From positions 1 to 64,000 of the forward strand of contig JAIXMR010000080.1 of assembly GCA_025677835.1 (NCBI GenBank): a stretch of DNA of 64,000 bases. The letters run 5' to 3'. This DNA is from Sporodiniella umbellata. Lineage: Eukaryota > Mucoromycota > Mucoromycetes > Mucorales > Rhizopodaceae. The notes under the pieces are model-generated. The model was not told the DNA's origin and did not search any database. It worked only from the letters and a program-made list of their open reading frames with translations. The translations under genes and the position numbers were made by a program. The stretch's first letter is position 1; the number at the start of each line of letters is the position of its first letter. Positions 1 to 8,604 of the stretch are shown here, piece after piece.

Positions 1-1435
1 AACACTACCCCGATCCCAGGGAGGTTTAGGGCTCTGGACCCTCTAATGCAAATGAAAGCCCTTCAGTGGAGATGGCTGGTTCCGACTATGCTCGAATATG
101 ATGGGCTACAGAACATATCAAACAATATGATCCTTTGCTTTACCCAGCGTAAAATACTCCCAGTATTTACTTCAATCTACTTCGGTACCATGCCCGGCTT
201 GCCCCTCTAAAACCGGTTTGCGCGCCTTACTCTTCCCTTCCTTCCGATCTCACCGCTTTTCAGAACATTCATTACACTGTTTCTCCTCTCTGTTCTCCGC
301 ATTGAAAACTGTTTTGCCCTCGCTGCCCCAGCACTGCTCGATCAATCCCAACACCACCCTCTCCACTCCATTGAGTACACTGATTCATCCTGGTAAGAAG
401 CTGGCAATTTTCCCTCCACAGATAGACTACACACTCTCTCTCCCCTCTGTGTATTTACAAAAAGCCTTTCATCGCCTGACAGGTGATCACATCTTGATCC
501 TCGATCAATCTACATTTTCATTACGTCTTAGGACCTTCTCTTCGACCGAGATACGCTACCACACCAAGACTAATAAAACTATTATTAACCTCCTCCGGGA
601 AGGGCGCATAAGTCTCTCTCCACTAGTCAATCTCCACAAGACATACCCAGACTCTTCAACTGCACAAGTAGATTTTCTACCGATATTTCTATCCATTTGG
701 AAAGTCAACTCTGTTCGGTTACTAACGGCTGAGATGATTAAACCTACCCCTAGGACATTTAGACTTTTCATAAGCCAACGAAAGACACTCGAGGTATCAC
801 TGAAATCTACTGCAAGTGTCCAGTCCAACATGGATCTTGCAGCTAAGCAAATCCCTTGGTCACTATTTTGGTCACAAAAAATTCCACTAAAAGCCAGAAC
901 AATTTGGTATAAAATCCTTCATCGTTCTATTCCTCATACTGGTCTGCTACACAAATTTCTATCGACCAAATTCCAATCCGACTTGTGCCCTCTTTGTGAG
1001 AAAGAAAAAGACTCTTTGATTCATTTCCTATACACCTGCCCAAAAATAGTCCCCGTTTGGCAACAGACCGCACACACCTACTTCGATGACAACTGGTCAC
1101 CCTGTATATGGTTCTTCCTTTCAGACTTACACATAGCTGTCACACACCTAACCGCCTTTCCTCCTAGGCATCCGAAAACTACGTCTGTGATCCAACTGTC
1201 CTCAGCCCAAATAATAGCTTGTACATTACAAGCAATATGGTCTGCTCGTTGGCTTCACATTTTTCACCAGATCCCTTTCACAACCTCCACAGTTTTCGCT
1301 CAAATGCAAAAGCTCATTCTCCAGCTCCACTCTGAACTCCAGCTGTGTCACGACATATGATAAATGATTTTGGATTCCTTGTTGCCAAGAACTGAATCGT
1401 TTAATGTCGACCCCACAAAAAAAAAAAAAAAAAAA
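1..1435 (+). mobile_element. 3' end of a LINE-type non-LTR retrotransposon (frameshifted, poly-A tail)
   Basis: The open frame at 218-1360 encodes the C-terminal tail of a LINE reverse-transcriptase polyprotein. It carries a zf-RVT zinc-binding motif around 980-1060: C-P-L-C, then a histidine, then a cysteine four residues later (H-F-L-Y-T-C). Upstream, frame 1 (1-210) also reads as retroelement protein and ends in TAA at 208-210, while the downstream frame is +1, so the copy has at least one frameshift and is probably dead. The frame has no good ATG of its own, since the first codon usable as a start is TTG at 218. The protein stop at 1358-1360 is followed by a short 3' UTR and an A-tract at 1418-1435, as expected for target-primed insertion. 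The element continues left of the window, so the reverse transcriptase core is not visible. Confidence 0.8.
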
Positions 1436-1773
1436 TTATTATTATTACTATATTTATTCTTTAATAGTCTATTGGACTTTAAATAAACCAGGATTTCTCT
1501 GAAATCCCCTAAAAAAAAAAAAAAGAAGGCATTCTAGGTTACACAAACAATCTGAAAAGAAACAAAAAACCAAAGGGATTGTAGTGACTGGATAGGTCTA
1601 TATATTATAAAAGAGAAGAAGTACTAGTAAGAATCTATCTATTATTAAAGTTGGGTCGTCTCTCATTACGTGGTAACTTTCTGCAACTTTGATAATATTA
1701 AATCGATTGCGGAAATCAAATGTCTGTAAAAAACTATTTTTTTTTTTTTTTTTTCAAAAGAAAACTACGTAAA
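1436..1773. other. AT-rich spacer between LINE tail and next gene
   Basis: A TTA-repeat stretch follows the LINE poly-A tail directly (1436-1450) and a second A-run lies at 1511-1524. A T-tract at 1738-1754 sits just upstream of the next gene. No coding region is supported. Confidence 0.5.
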
Positions 1774-3641
1774 ATGCATAAAGAGATTGTCAAAAACTAT
1801 TTAGAGTCTACAGAAATCCCAAACTTTGTTCACTTTGGCAAAAAATGTAAAAGCGAAATTGGCAACAGCTTCTACAAAAAAAAGTTGGATACATCCCTAA
1901 GTTTCCAAGAATACTGGAGAAACTGCTATAATCAAGGCATAATTACTACGCGACCCAAAGAAAACATTGCTTCAAAGCGGAAAGGAATAATTTCTCCTTT
2001 CAAGGCTGCTTTTGAAGTCTATAGTAACAATAACGCCAGTTTTGAAAACTTTGAGTACCAATCGATGAGAACGCTATCTGCCTTTTCAGAAAGTAGTTCA
2101 CTTATTTTAACAAACATGCTAAAGCAAAAGCAAAAGGAGCAGGGCGACAGTTCTGAGCGAGAAACTGAGCAAGAGCTTAGCCCAACTGAAACGGAAGTCG
2201 AACAGGAAGAGGAGCAAGGGCGAGAGGCTGATCCAGAAATAGAATATGAGGGCAAAAAAAAAGATAAAGAGGAATTTTATTGGCTCAACGAGAGGACCAT
2301 ATTAAGAGCTATAAAGATTCAAGTAGAGAGGCTTATATGTAAGAAAAAAGTCAATGTTGGAACTATAGACAGTCTAGATTGGAAAGCTTTGGATGGCAAT
2401 AAGCTGTCAGTTCAGTTGTTAAAAGCAGCTAAATCCATTCTAAGACAATCCAATATTAGTGCAACGGAAACAGAGTATCTGAAGTAAGTTGAGCGCATTT
2501 TTCATTTGCCAGCAGTGTTTTAATGGTCGTGAATAGGCTATGTGTATCCAACATAATTAGTTTTGTTGTTCCTGGGTTTACGACTCTCAACAAAAAATAC
2601 ATTGACAACGATTTGCTTTCAGAAATTCAAAATGTAAAATACACGGACCATTTTTGTTTGGAAAGTAGTTGCGAATCCGCTATCAATGAAGTTTTTACGA
2701 GTATTGAAGGTTTTAGATTTGAGTAAGTTGTTCAAGTTTGATAGAAAGAGAACTTTAACTTTTTCCTAGTAAAAATAGAAAAAGAGCTGTAAAACATCTC
2801 GACAAGTTACAATATGAGGAAGGAAACATTGAGAGTACAAAATACCAAGTTGCTCGAATATTAAAAGATGTGTAAACTGATCGTCAATTTGCTTTGAAAA
2901 AAAAAAAAAAAAAGACTTACCTATTGCTTTTATTTCAGGATTTTTAACATGAACGTCTTTGGCGGTGACGAAAAAGACTTATCAGAGTTTACGTATATAC
3001 GAAAGTTTGAACAGATCCTCGATGTAATCTTCGAAGACAGCAATATAGTGATGAAGGAGTAAGCGAACTACAATATGTTTATAGCAAGTGTTAAATATGA
3101 TATAGTGGAGAATCTGGTTGTCAGGCCACTAAAAACAACAAAATTCTTGACTTGGATTTAAACGATTGTGAAATTTCAAGAAAAGTTGACTTAATTTTTA
3201 TCCACAAAAGAGATCAAGTAAATTTAGAACTATCGAATGTCGAGTTCAAAAAAAGTGGAGCGTCAAAACAGACAAAGATGTGCCAGCACTCAAAAAATGC
3301 AAGAATCAATGCCTGTATTTTTAACGACCTCATGGTCCTACGGTTGAGCCAAAACACCAAATTAATAACAATTGATTGGAATGGTAAATTAAGCGACAAG
3401 ATTATAGCATTATTGAGGTACTAACTCTTATCTTGCGTTAAAAGGAAGATATGGATATCTTTATGAGCTTTGCAAGATTAAAGACTGTATAATTGCAAGG
3501 GCAGCCTCCCCTCTATTCATACCTAAGCGTCTCGATGAAATAATTGAGTTTAAAGAAACATTATTAAGTCTGTATAAATGGAAGGTAGGAAAACCTCATA
3601 CACATGTGCCAACGATTCTGACAAGTATTAGGCACATATGA
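1774..3641 (+). CDS. unknown-family protein with a PD-(D/E)XK nuclease-like core, six exons
   Basis: My model joins 1774-2483, 2513-2722, 2770-2871, 2939-3058, 3106-3417 and 3449-3641, and gives exactly 548 codons plus TGA. The five introns are 29, 47, 67, 47 and 31 nt. I start at the ATG at 1774 because the upstream in-frame ATG at 1720 would force a poly-phenylalanine run encoded by a T-tract. Residues about 110-170 are an acidic low-complexity linker rich in E and Q. Exon 5 has the order D409, then E427-F428-K429, then a Q/H-S-K-N-x-R-I-N segment, which is the D...ExK arrangement of PD-(D/E)XK nucleases; this is a pattern match, not a family identification. The C-terminus (G-Y-L-Y-E-L ... 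F-I-P-K) looks globular. I recognise no named family. It could be a mobile-element-associated or Crinkler-like nuclease, given the LINE next door, but that is inference. Confidence 0.6.
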
Positions 3642-4263
3642 TTTCTTTAAAAAACAGCGCCTTACAAACCGTCATAAAACAAAAAAGGAAATACTCTTGT
3701 ATAGAAACAGTGAATATACGACTTTCGAGCCCTGAAGAAGAAGAAACAGAGTACAATTGCTCTATATTTCTTACTCCTGAAAGCAGAAGAACAAGAACAG
3801 CCAATGAATAGAAAGCCACTTTGTACAGCGTTTGGGGTTAACCTTTGTCTTTGGGAAAGTTTGCTGACTTGATGCAGCCTTACATCTGATTTGAGTCTGC
3901 AATAAATATGTATACTTGCTTTAAGAAACAGTATCATTTTTTGTTGCGTTTGCACTTATTACTATTTTGGTATTCGCTATAGACTATATCTTGCCTTCCA
4001 CCTGAGCGGTTTAAAGCCATTACTGTTTGACTATGGAAAGTATGTCAAGGTTCGTAATGTACTCGCAAAGATAAGGTTGATTCTCAGTTTATAAAGCGAT
4101 CCACACAAAAAGTTATACAAAAATTGTATAAAATGGCTTTTTTTTTCTTTTTATGGACGAACATGCTATAAAAAGAAATTACGTCGGGTAGCTGGATTTT
4201 GTTTAGCATAGTTTGTGTAAATCAAAAGAGAGCAAATTCCTTCTGTCATGTATATTTTTAGTT
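3642..4263. other. intergenic, no gene seen
   Basis: Both flanking genes end here (convergent 3' ends). Several short open frames on the minus strand have no homology that I recognise and no splice context. I see only AT-rich 3'-flank sequence. Confidence 0.5.
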
Positions 4264-7200
4264 TTATTTATAAAGCCCTGAGCCAGTGGCTAACAATTTG
4301 TTGAGTCTATAGGGTTCAGTTCTCTCTACAAATCTAATGCCTTTTGTTTCCAATTGCTCTAATATAGGGGAGTAGACATGAGGCTGAGTGGGTACCTGCA
4401 CACCTCTTTCAGGAATCTTGTTATCCAATATCAAATCTACAGTCATAGCAGCGGGAAGACCAACTGTTTCAGCCATGGCTGTGTGTTCGTCATTACCATA
4501 TTTAATCAAAGTAGATGTGAGAGTTTCCTAAATTCCTCCTGTATAAGTCTAAAGCTAAAAGACAAAAGCTGAATAGCCAAGTATGTGTATTTACCTTTTT
4601 GCCAGAGCGATGTTCTATACCAAACTCGTGGTGCATTCCTACCAAGTCTCGCTCGCCATCATTGTATTTTAACTGTTTAGCCAAGATCTGAGAGAAGTGG
4701 TCCAAAACGCTTGCTCCCTTCAAATGGTCTGGGAAGGTATCGTTTCCTGAGATCAAAAAGTCAATAGCAGACCATACTTTTTCGGCCATAGGATGATCTT
4801 TAGATACTCCCAATCTTTGAACAATTGTATCTTTAGAAACATCAGACAAAACTTTTTTAAAATAGCTTGTCTATTTGTAAAAATAAGTAATCTATTATAA
4901 TCAACCTTTTTTTTTTTTTTACCCAGTTCGTACAGTTTCCAAGGGTTGCTCCAGCATCTAAAAAGCCCAGTTGACGGAACCCATAGAGCAAGTCAGAATA
5001 TCCCTAAACTATGTATAAGTACCTTTTTTTTTTTTTTTTTTTTTTCGTGCCTATATATATATATATATGTCTATACCTGATATCTGAGCGTTCCTCTGAA
5101 CATAGTGTCCATATCGGACAAAGGACCTAAGCCGTAGACTTCAGAATATCCAAGTGAGTTACGGTTTGCTAGTCCTTCAAACACCAGCCCGGCGTAGGGT
5201 GTGCTGACTGTTGGAAAGTGTTCTTTTAACAAGTTGGCGCCAGATATGGTGTGTTTCTATTCACTTTAAATAAGTATACTTGATTTCCCCCTTTATCTTA
5301 CCTTTCCGTTATTCCAATAGGTAGCATCATTTCCGCTAGCAGTCAAGACACCACGAGGAGACCAACTGAATTTGTAGCCAAAAGGAACATTAGAAGCTTC
5401 AGGCGCTGGCAAACCGCCACACCAAGAAATGAAAGAGCGTATCTAGTAAATAGTGTGAGTGACGATTTATGTATACAAAAAATATGTCGGCGCTTACCTT
5501 GCTTCCGTTTCTCTTGGCTTCGTCAATGATTTTCATAGCAGACATATGATCAATACCAGGATCAAGGCCTACTTCGTTCATGATCAAGATACCTGCCTTC
5601 TGTGCTCTATTATTTGTTGAGTCAACATGCGAAAAAACGACTATTGTTTACCTTTGATTGAGCTCTTTCATTTCGTCTGAAACATAACTGGCAGTGACCA
5701 TGTCTTTTCTTTGTTCAATACACACATTGGCTACTTTGGTGTGTAAAAATGCGGGTACAAAACTAAAGGTGGTTTCTTTTTAGTCAATCTCCCTCTGTAG
5801 GATATATCCATGTTACCTAACAACCACATCTGCGTTACTGACAAGGCCAGATAACTGTTGATGGTCTGAAATATCTAAGCCTACAGATTGAGCATTGGGA
5901 TATTGCGACACCAAAGCTTCGGCTTCTTTTGTCACATTGCTTGCTATATATTTATATATAAAGTATAAGAGTAAAATACATAATGTATTTCTTTTTATCG
6001 TACCAACAACTATATTGACATCCGATCGCCTAGAGAGATGATTTACCAAGGGTCCAGATACCATGCCAGAACCAAGAAGCAACACAGTCTTTTTCTTCAA
6101 GTGACCTTGCTTAGAAGCAGACAAAAGACTTTGAAGACCTTCATGGGCTTTGGTAAGTTTTCCTTTGTCAGCAATAGTGCAGTGACGCAGAAGAGGAGGA
6201 AGCTTCTCGAGAGGTACATCAGCAGGTTGAACGACCATTTGCTCAATAAGAGGGTAGAGCTTTTTGCTGAAATACTGACTGCTCTCTACAGGCAATTCTG
6301 CAGGCAATATATCTATCCCCATCACCTGCATACCACTTTTCTCGACGCTATAGAGCAAAATCGGAATCTTAGCTTAAAAAAAAAAAAAAAAAAAAGATCG
6401 AGTATATAATTACTTTTTGTGTTCCAGATTTTGTATAGCATCATAGTAAAAGAAGCCATCGTCTACAGGAGTATTGTGCGAAAGACATTCAAAAGCACCT
6501 CTTACATCGCAGACAACATCACCCAAGCTCATCATTTTTCCTGGTTTGATGGCACCACTGATCTTTTGTCTTTCGATTTCTTCCAGTTGTTTGTTGGTGA
6601 GCGTTCTAGGATATTTTTTATCCCAGTAAGCGCCTGTCATTACACAGTTAACATAGGGAGCGACCTAAATAGTTTTGTGGGTAAGTAAAGGCTGATGATG
6701 ATGATGATGATGGTTATTATTATTTTGGTATATATGGATTACAGATTGATGAAAGTTTGATTTGTATCTGTTAGGGTTTGTAAAGTAGTCATCAGCTACT
6801 TCCAAAGGTTTGTTTCCATCCTTGGTAACAATATAGTCCTCCACGCCCAGCTGAGTAGCGTAAAGCTTTCTTAGGTTAGGATCTAAACAAACAGCTAAGC
6901 TCATCTGTTCAAAAGTATATTTAGCTTACTCTTGTCGTTTACGATTTTTTCCAAATCTTTAGCAGGAACAAATTCGTGGGGCAATTCTCTAAAGATTTCC
7001 ATAGCACCCTTATTAAAGACGTATTTAGACCCTACTCTAATTGCTATCGTTCTGTTTTACCTGAGCTACATTTCCATAGCCTGTGAAGGCAAAAATGAGA
7101 GGGCCAAAGTCTTTGGGAGTTCCGTTTTGCATAATCATGTTACCTACGCCATGCAAAGCTAATTTAGCTTGAGACAAAGTAGGGTAGTTGTGTGCCATAG

Positions 7201-7897
7201 ACATGTACTAGGGAAGAAGGGATCAACACATCAGTCTGTGAATTTTGGTTTTTACCATAAGAGGCGTGCTGTAGCCCATACCCAGAAAGCGATGGCCCAT
7301 ACCATGGAGTGTATCAATCATGCCTGCATTTCCAGCAAATTTGCCAAAAGCAACCAGTCGTTTGCCCGTTTCGTCTGTCATAAGTTCGTAGTCCATCAGA
7401 CGAATATTCTACATTTTCCCACGGAGTCTATGTTAATGGGCAAAAGGAACTGGGGGAAGGTGGTACATACCTTGTCAAGTATGGATTGAAGCATCGGCAT
7501 ATTTTTTTCATTCCCTTTATGGGTGTGGGAAAAAAACAGATAGGTTTTGTCTGGCAGGAGAGACTGCTCAGGCACCTCTTTAATTCCAAGAATAATATCA
7601 GCCTTCGAGAGATCCTCGCTAACGATGGCTCCAGCCTATTTGTTTTCTCTAAGTCTCTTTTTCTCTTTGTTTCTTCCGTACCCTTTCATAAGTTTCGGTT
7701 GGAAAAATTCGCTTTGTGCTTGGCTGAATATAGACTTTGGTTCCAGTGTCTTTAATCAGCAGTTTGACATGATCTGGAGAAAGAGGGGCTCGACGTTCCC
7801 ATCGACTCTTATCTTCTCTTCGAATGCCAATTGTAGCGTAGTAGTGTCTTTGCACAAGCAATTGTTTCTTGCCACGCTTGACAAGATTGGATAGCAT
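4264..7897 (-). CDS. AASS: alpha-aminoadipic semialdehyde synthase (bifunctional lysine-ketoglutarate reductase / saccharopine dehydrogenase)
   Basis: Sixteen exons give 927 residues in frame, close to the roughly 926 of animal AASS. Exons on the minus strand: 7897-7682, 7635-7471, 7408-7256, 7207-7061, 7008-6930, 6882-6743, 6664-6414, 6347-6004, 5943-5817, 5762-5652, 5606-5498, 5442-5302, 5256-5077, 5003-4923, 4870-4595 and 4527-4264. The N-terminus is basic and hydroxylated like a mitochondrial presequence, followed by [15 protein letters not shown]. The LKR half shows F-F-S-H-T-H-K and [11 protein letters not shown]. The SDH half shows [19 protein letters not shown] and [12 protein letters not shown] joins lysine and 2-oxoglutarate to saccharopine; SDH splits this to glutamate and aminoadipate semialdehyde. 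Yeast-type fungi carry these as separate biosynthetic enzymes (LYS1, LYS9), so the fusion points to a catabolic, probably mitochondrial enzyme. Confidence 0.95.
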
Positions 7898-8604
7898 TTC
7901 ACCTTTTGTTTTTCTAGTAGAAAAAAATGTAAAGAAAAGACAAAAACAAAAAAAAAAAAAGAAAGCTAAAAACCAAGCTACTCTTTATTCAATTCACTAT
8001 TTAATAACCAAAAAAAAAAAAAAAAAAAAAAAAAAATCTCACGATCAAGCTCACGGGATGAAGGCATTGTTATCCTTAAGCTTTAAGTTACACAAGCCCG
8101 TCAAAGAAATAAACTTTTAAAGAGGGTTACATTGTTAATCTTGTTTTTTTTTTTTTTTCTGTAGCCAGATGATAGATCATATCTAGTCCGAGATGCAGAT
8201 ATGAATAAATCGTGTTGGTTGTAGAGTAGGCTAGAAATACCCGTGCATTCTGCAATCAGGGGAAGGGTGTGTTATTGCAGTTGAACTATGATCCGATAGG
8301 AATAGGAGTGTGAAAAATAAAAACAAAAACAAAAGGGCAACATTTTGTTTCTAGGAAAATGGCAAATCCCAAACCCCCCCCTTTTTTTTTTCAACCCACG
8401 TAGCGGCAGCTGGCCTCACTCTACAAAAAATCCAAATGGATTTACTAAAGGTTCTGCGTTTCTTAAACATACATGCAATCGCTCTTTAGTGTCTCAAAGC
8501 AGTCTTGTTGACTAGATTTTAAGCTAATGCACATACAGGTTACATAGGACTATTGTATGGATCCAAAACGTAAAGTAGAAGAAAAGAGAGAGAGCTTTAT
8601 GTTC
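7898..8604. other. upstream region of AASS, homopolymer-rich
   Basis: This stretch holds the AASS promoter and the 3' flank of the glutaredoxin-like gene. It contains A-runs at about 7950-7962 and 8010-8036, a T-run at about 8145-8158 and a C-run followed by T at about 8375-8390. Short frames across the A-runs give lysine homopolymers and are not believable genes. Confidence 0.5.

Follow-up and report, generated by a model that had tools for sequence, protein, structure and literature searches.

The gene and its product

The window analysed here is a 64,000-nucleotide stretch at the start of contig JAIXMR010000080.1 of Sporodiniella umbellata, a fungus of the family Rhizopodaceae in the order Mucorales, and its subject is a gene for a protein with a PD-(D/E)XK nuclease-like core. 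The gene starts at position 1774 on the plus strand, and splice-site reconstruction gives seven exons spanning 1774–3811 that encode 571 amino acids; the six introns are all GT...AG and 47–67 nt long. The translation is identical, letter for letter, to the deposited S. umbellata hypothetical protein BY458DRAFT_520062. A first-pass annotation, made from the letters alone, had correctly seen a multi-exon gene beginning at 1774, but counted six exons, placed the end at 3641 and arrived at exactly 548 codons, with D409, E427 and K429 as the nuclease-like residues. We could reproduce a 548-residue protein with this numbering exactly by ending intron 1 at 2512 (29 nt), taking intron 5 as 3418–3448 (31 nt) and leaving the last intron unrecognized, so that the last exon is wrong, and we infer that these were the splice choices made. 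Introns of 29 and 31 nt are unlikely because the others here are at least 47 nt, and exon 7, absent from that model, is supported by the recurrence of its C-terminal tail (TP..R.R) in several paralogues. Given the canonical introns and the tail shared with paralogues, the D...ExK trio, which is real, is therefore D401, E419 and K421. We ruled out a pseudogene, as the seven exons form one continuous frame across GT...AG introns and keep the motif residues. Computation thus establishes the gene structure.

The protein is laid out as a small N-terminal domain, an acidic linker, an all-helical domain and then the nuclease core. Exon 1 (1774–2483) encodes the N-terminal domain (about residues 1–65), the linker and the beginning of the helical region, which continues through exons 2 (2537–2722) and 3 (2770–2871). 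Exon 4 (2939–3058) carries the end of the helical domain together with the first helix and strand of the core, and terminates within the codon for D373, part of a conserved DGE. Exon 5 (3106–3383) lies in the core and includes D401 (codon 3188–3190), E419-F420-K421 (3242–3250) and, in the helix that follows the ExK strand, Q433-H-S-K-N-A-R-I-N441 (3284–3310). The last strands of the core and the beginning of its final helix fall in exon 6 (3445–3584); exon 7 (3632–3811) supplies the remainder of that helix, a C-terminal tail containing TPESRRTR, and the stop. All of these are on the plus strand, and in the predicted model the core comprises residues 349–537, a genomic span of 2985–3706 with introns included. 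The acidic linker and globular C-terminus noted in the first-pass annotation are both borne out: residues 119–168 contain 20 D/E versus 8 K/R, and the C-terminal half is structured in the AlphaFold model.

A conserved putative nuclease core in an unnamed family

AlphaFold models of the window protein and a Benjaminiella relative, members of two subfamilies, share a confident core in which the D and the ExK lie on a single hairpin, with D401 and E419/K421 on adjacent strands. A central beta-sheet, which the first-pass annotation had set beforehand as the check on its proposal of a nuclease-like core, is present in the predicted models, and VIA-align groups the predicted core with DrdV, BpuSI, EcoRI and other PD-(D/E)XK enzymes. 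A passage in PMC1189080 defines this superfamily by a bipartite (P)D...(D/E)XK catalytic motif and by metal-dependent phosphodiester cleavage; the near-invariant D401, E419 and K421 form such a motif. Judged from the models, it is very probable that the protein has a PD-(D/E)XK fold with an intact active site. A PDB search by sequence gave no match, and a viral fold library gave none at E <= 0.001. For residues 230–517 of model ma320f744fa06, which cover the helical domain and the core, the Z-scores to mitoribosomal chains 5/s, which we take to be mL37/mL65, are above those to any restriction enzyme listed.

Conservation was counted in an alignment of 50 proteins, over rows bearing a letter at the position only; seven of the 57 proteins (P0049, P0051–P0054, P0056 and P0057) were omitted. 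D401 is found in 41 of 45 rows (N in two), E419 and K421 each in 46 of 47, Q433 in 47 of 47, K436 in 49 of 49 and N441 in 48 of 48, with N437 in 44 of 49 and R439 in 45 of 48. By these counts the Q/H-S-K-N-x-R-I-N helix, which had already looked conserved on first inspection, is a hallmark of the family. E414 (44/47), D463 (43/48) and G466 (45/46) are also strongly favored. Conservation of the motif exceeds chance, its residues being near-invariant among the 50 aligned proteins. The D, E and K, on whose retention in paralogues the first-pass annotation had staked its proposal, are kept in paralogues and relatives; in a copy with a stop on contig C35, K replaces E419.

The same annotation called the protein an orphan, a description that no longer holds. 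Two earlier protein searches returned only the window protein itself and one relative. A search with a core alignment of the S. umbellata copies and one relative returned 56 proteins at E <= 10, 54 of them at E <= 5.4e-11. Organism names are attached to 24 of these 54 and represent 12 genera (Benjaminiella, Mucor, Backusella, Sporodiniella, Circinella, Spinellus, Rhizopus, Cokeromyces, Apophysomyces, Gilbertella, Thamnidium and Helicostylum); the Sporodiniella entries are two other copies from the same genome, and the other 11 genera are presumably all members of Mucorales. The named relatives are annotated as hypothetical, uncharacterized or unnamed proteins. Family, conservation and predicted fold are likewise established computationally.

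The earlier statement that no named family has this architecture holds for the window protein in Pfam (no family at E <= 10), NCBIfam and PADLOC. None of the 56 proteins has a precomputed Pfam domain. A Pfam scan of 50 members gave scattered matches, the best among the families listed (25 of 27) being Lge1 in one member (E 4.7e-4); PDDEXK_4 (E 0.026) and MmcB-like (E 0.031) each appeared once, with curated cut-offs not displayed. A scan of IMG/VR gave 85 pattern matches, none of which was confirmed. The PD-(D/E)XK superfamily itself is long known; the family is unnamed, and neither it nor its tie to the Tc1/mariner ends described below appeared among the listings that searches of open-licence PMC papers returned.

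A tree of 39 of the 57 proteins plus three S. umbellata cores (20 of 38 inner branches well supported, with long-branch warnings) groups the copies on contigs C87, C112, C135 and C194 with proteins of other named genera, and the C152 copy and the window gene with unnamed proteins only. The window gene and protein P0002, 60% identical over 161 residues, form a separate branch. The C87 copy is 92% identical to a Mucor mucedo protein (162 residues), 78% to one from Circinella minor and 75% to one from Gilbertella; C135 is 88% identical to M. mucedo and 81% to Circinella umbellata. C112 is 89% identical to Backusella (128 residues), 71% to two Rhizopus proteins, 66% to Thamnidium and 48% to Apophysomyces. 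Because Rhizopus and Sporodiniella belong to the same family, C112 runs against taxonomy. Horizontal movement could explain these identities, but so could hidden paralogy or uneven constraint.

Genomic copies and transposon-type inverted repeats

A search of the S. umbellata genome recovered six copies that are open over the core across the match (C194, C152, C135, C87, C112 and C178, the last being the window contig) and four that are interrupted by stops in the frame of the match (C188, C143, C35 and C150), introns not being excluded for each of these four. Flanks were compared with shuffled sequence at eight loci: three have strong inverted repeats, C188 is just above the shuffle maximum and four are at or below it.

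The clearest case of transposon-type ends is offered by C194, where two arms of 404 and 407 bp, 97.5% identical and beginning GTACAGTCAAACCTATGG, enclose the nuclease gene. Over their first 135 bp these arms are ~87% identical to the ends of larger inverted pairs on C14 and C125; they start with TACAGT, common to the transposase-bearing elements, and qualify as Tc1/mariner-type terminal inverted repeats (TIRs). No DDE transposase of its own was seen by eye among open reading frames (ORFs) of at least 50 residues in the C194 element, the ORFs not having been scanned with Pfam. The C14 element (C14:44834–50301, 5.5 kb) has 2,090-bp arms that are 99.86% identical; an ORF in its left arm matches DDE_3, and its right arm and the C125 ends carry near-identical, inward-reading ORFs. 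The C125 pairs (C125:117539–124441 and 145432–152112) are themselves Tc1/mariner-type elements with transposase ORFs in their inward-facing arms. Tc1/mariner is the largest group of transposable elements reported in Mucorales in the section of PMC7928374 that treats them.

A second copy, on C143, lies inside identical arms of 196 bp, the left of which begins TACAGTGAGAACGG. The left-arm region has 19 genome matches, two of them the locus itself, and the end is included in 15 of the 17 others. The C152 copy (C152:81134–85543) is flanked by 1.3-kb arms, 98.5% identical, with a 74% relative on C114; because these arms contain the gene's own 3′ end, we regard the repeat as a locally formed inverted duplication and not as a clear TIR. 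The C188 copy lies 0.7 kb from a lone C194-type end, and a weak match to the C143-type end (70% over 129 bp) lies about 3 kb from C87.

Other sequences accompany these ends or resemble the family. The spacer of the C14 element holds an unnamed 321-residue ORF with 27 genome matches including itself (merged into 20 loci), two good ones inside the C125 pairs. This ORF type is strongly tied to the ends, being found with them at 7 of 19 other loci where 0.22 would be expected (P 3.7e-9); the seven include two on C125 that closely copy the C14 element and are not independent of it. By eye the ORF (L073:452–1414) had appeared to be a D...ExQ nuclease, a candidate left unsupported by hhalign (E 0.18, probability 0.3%); Pfam and NCBIfam give no support either, and the best PDB match has an E of 0.27. 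On C165, a 562-residue frame matches the family weakly (E 0.02), its ExK lysine reading S by eye, and near it are ~10 tandem copies of a ~314-bp unit that are about 98–99% identical (L055:5756–8903). Also on this contig, a frame at C165:14492–15199 (L024) has the family's N-terminal domain and linker, with no core match listed beside it, and adjoins an IS1595-type transposase fragment (PF12762) and a C143-type transposon end.

The window copy has no comparable setting. Its flanks give an inverted-repeat score of 13.6, equal to the shuffle maximum, so that it is not within TIRs, and the 64-kb window has no ungapped inverted repeat of at least 100 bp within 8 kb. Upstream, and outside the gene, lies the 3′ end of a long interspersed nuclear element (LINE; 131–1524, plus strand) with a zf-RVT ORF at 131–1360 (PF13966, E 5.4e-9) followed by an A-rich tail; it has 49 genome matches, itself and distant kin included. 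This LINE end opens the contig (1–1524), and near-identical copies open C181 and C36 in the same orientation; such shared contig starts may reflect an assembly broken at repeats or a subtelomeric position. A dispersed repeat of unassigned kind at 1546–1667, between LINE and gene, matches C162 (81%), C130 (74%), C116, C165 and C104. No Rfam match at E <= 0.1 was found in positions 1–8000, this repeat included, and no tandem repeat in positions 1–6000. Downstream, a gene for saccharopine dehydrogenase runs on the minus strand. We ruled out that the gene belongs to the LINE or is its cargo: the LINE is repeated and its tail stops near 1524, and the gene has a separate start, introns of its own and relatives at other loci. 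The adjacency that had been pointed out in the first-pass annotation exists, but looks incidental, and the suggested link to mobile elements is supported for some other copies (C194 and C143, through Tc1/mariner-type inverted repeats) and not to the LINE or the window copy.

Interpretation and relation to known systems

We propose that the gene probably encodes an intracellular, metal-dependent PD-(D/E)XK endonuclease of an unnamed Mucorales multigene family whose lineage is possibly mobile. The helical domain would bind a substrate or partner and the core would make the metal-dependent cut: D401 and E419 would hold Mg2+, K421 would activate water and the helix carrying Q433, K436, N437, R439 and N441 would lie close to the phosphates or the metal site. 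Both the catalytic activity and the assignment of DNA, not RNA, as the substrate are our inference. With less weight, the family may be mobile as a gene lineage: some of its copies would be carried by Tc1/mariner-type inverted-repeat elements, may pass from genus to genus and would degenerate, and the window copy would have been left behind, still intact, next to the saccharopine dehydrogenase gene. We rate a mobile, selfish lineage as possible, at slightly under even, and any specific biological role lower than that.

Several points weigh against this proposal. For the fold, Foldseek gave no match at E <= 0.001 for either model, the assignment comes from VIA-align, topology and motif and not from measured coordinates, and confidence is low over most of the first 200 residues of the model. 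For mobility, the C194 copy shows 82% identity to Rhizopus (111 residues), 79% to Benjaminiella, 79% to Mucor saturninus and 77.5% to Spinellus; the agreement of this subfamily with taxonomy reduces the likelihood of a mobile lineage, and the comparison across genera uses identities of the family proteins alone. At the window, C135, C87 and C112 copies no inverted repeat scores higher than the shuffle maximum, C188 barely exceeds it (18.0 versus 16.6) and the right arm of C143 is without its first 12 bases. With the query loci C194 and C143 excluded, a listed end is found within 4 kb of just one of nine core loci (0.10 expected, Poisson P 0.098; 37 of the 38 listed end matches were used, C195:670 being treated as the same site as C195:537), and the association is therefore shown copy by copy and not as a family trait.

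Some of these observations would suit a host nuclease family, acting in repair, RNA processing or genome defence and inherited vertically in Mucorales, with the inverted repeats arising by chance transposon capture. Of the six S. umbellata subfamilies, four (C87, C112, C135 and C194) cluster with other named genera, the core is strongly conserved, no element is visible around the window, C135, C87 and C112 copies, and the closest named relative of the C194 subfamily is Rhizopus. The four further copies with stops (C188, C143, C35 and C150, with the intron caveat given above), the disagreement of the C112 identities with taxonomy and the two copies between transposon-type inverted repeats argue in the other direction, and we consider this explanation rather unlikely. 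A bolder form of our own proposal, which we regard as doubtful, is that these are selfish nucleases carried as Tc1/mariner cargo. The elements would give ends and transposase, the nuclease would aid persistence by cutting empty sites or rival elements or by killing non-carriers, and the unit would move between genera; the window copy would have become fixed outside an element, and the stock may be related to the ancestor of mL37/mL65.

A killer or toxin nuclease resembling SPOK or Crinkler-RHS proteins, with toxic cleavage serving selfish spread or action on other organisms, seems improbable. The parts of PMC6660238 that describe the SPOKs of Podospora show a similar union of an N-terminal domain of unknown kind, unstructured segments and a PD-(D/E)XK domain required for killing, in genes thought to disperse across species, and an extract of PMC5289972 has Crinkler C-termini often containing restriction endonuclease (REase) domains. 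The full-length window protein, however, has no kinase or NTPase domain match and no signal-like hydrophobic stretch, and no antidote candidate was identified. The same simple hydropathy measure gives no support to the effector suggested in the first-pass annotation, taken as a secreted protein: the N-terminal maximum over 12 residues is 0.11 for the window protein, 0.81 for C194 and 0.22 for C135, with 2.18 for the N-domain relative on C165. A catalytically dead nuclease fold repurposed to bind nucleic acid, as in mitoribosomal mL37/mL65, is very unlikely, as D, E, K and Q are near-invariant in the family and a dead enzyme would not need them.

The proposed endonuclease shares parts with several known systems and differs from each. 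Compared with SPOK, it has no kinase match in Pfam, only 34 residues follow its last core helix, and no killing is known for it. The Crinkler/RHS-type (CR) proteins, as portrayed in an excerpt of PMC5289972, likewise place an REase-superfamily domain behind a different N-terminus, but the window protein has no NTPase, kinase or family match (in Pfam; the helical domain was not fold-searched alone). The N-terminal nuclease domains of DrdV and BpuSI are 10–14% identical to the window protein, which at 571 residues lacks a methyltransferase or specificity part and is eukaryotic and intron-bearing. Identity to mL37/mL65, described in a passage of PMC8998825 as repurposed endonucleases that became ribosomal proteins of the animal mitoribosome, is 8%, and the present family keeps the full catalytic set. 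PF07147 (mL37/mL65, PDCD9) has no match in the S. umbellata genome, and the control genomes likewise have none. The structural likeness bears on the origin of those ribosomal proteins. The family spans 12 named genera with a complete predicted nuclease site, yet neither Pfam nor NCBIfam gives a match for the member that was tested over its full length. TnsA, the PD-(D/E)XK partner of the DDE transposase in Tn7, is a weak structural match, and a nuclease and transposase paired in one element are seen for TnsA in Tn7 and not for this family. If copies do travel with Tc1/mariner elements, they would provide a eukaryotic example, open to testing, in which a second nuclease partners a DDE transposon.
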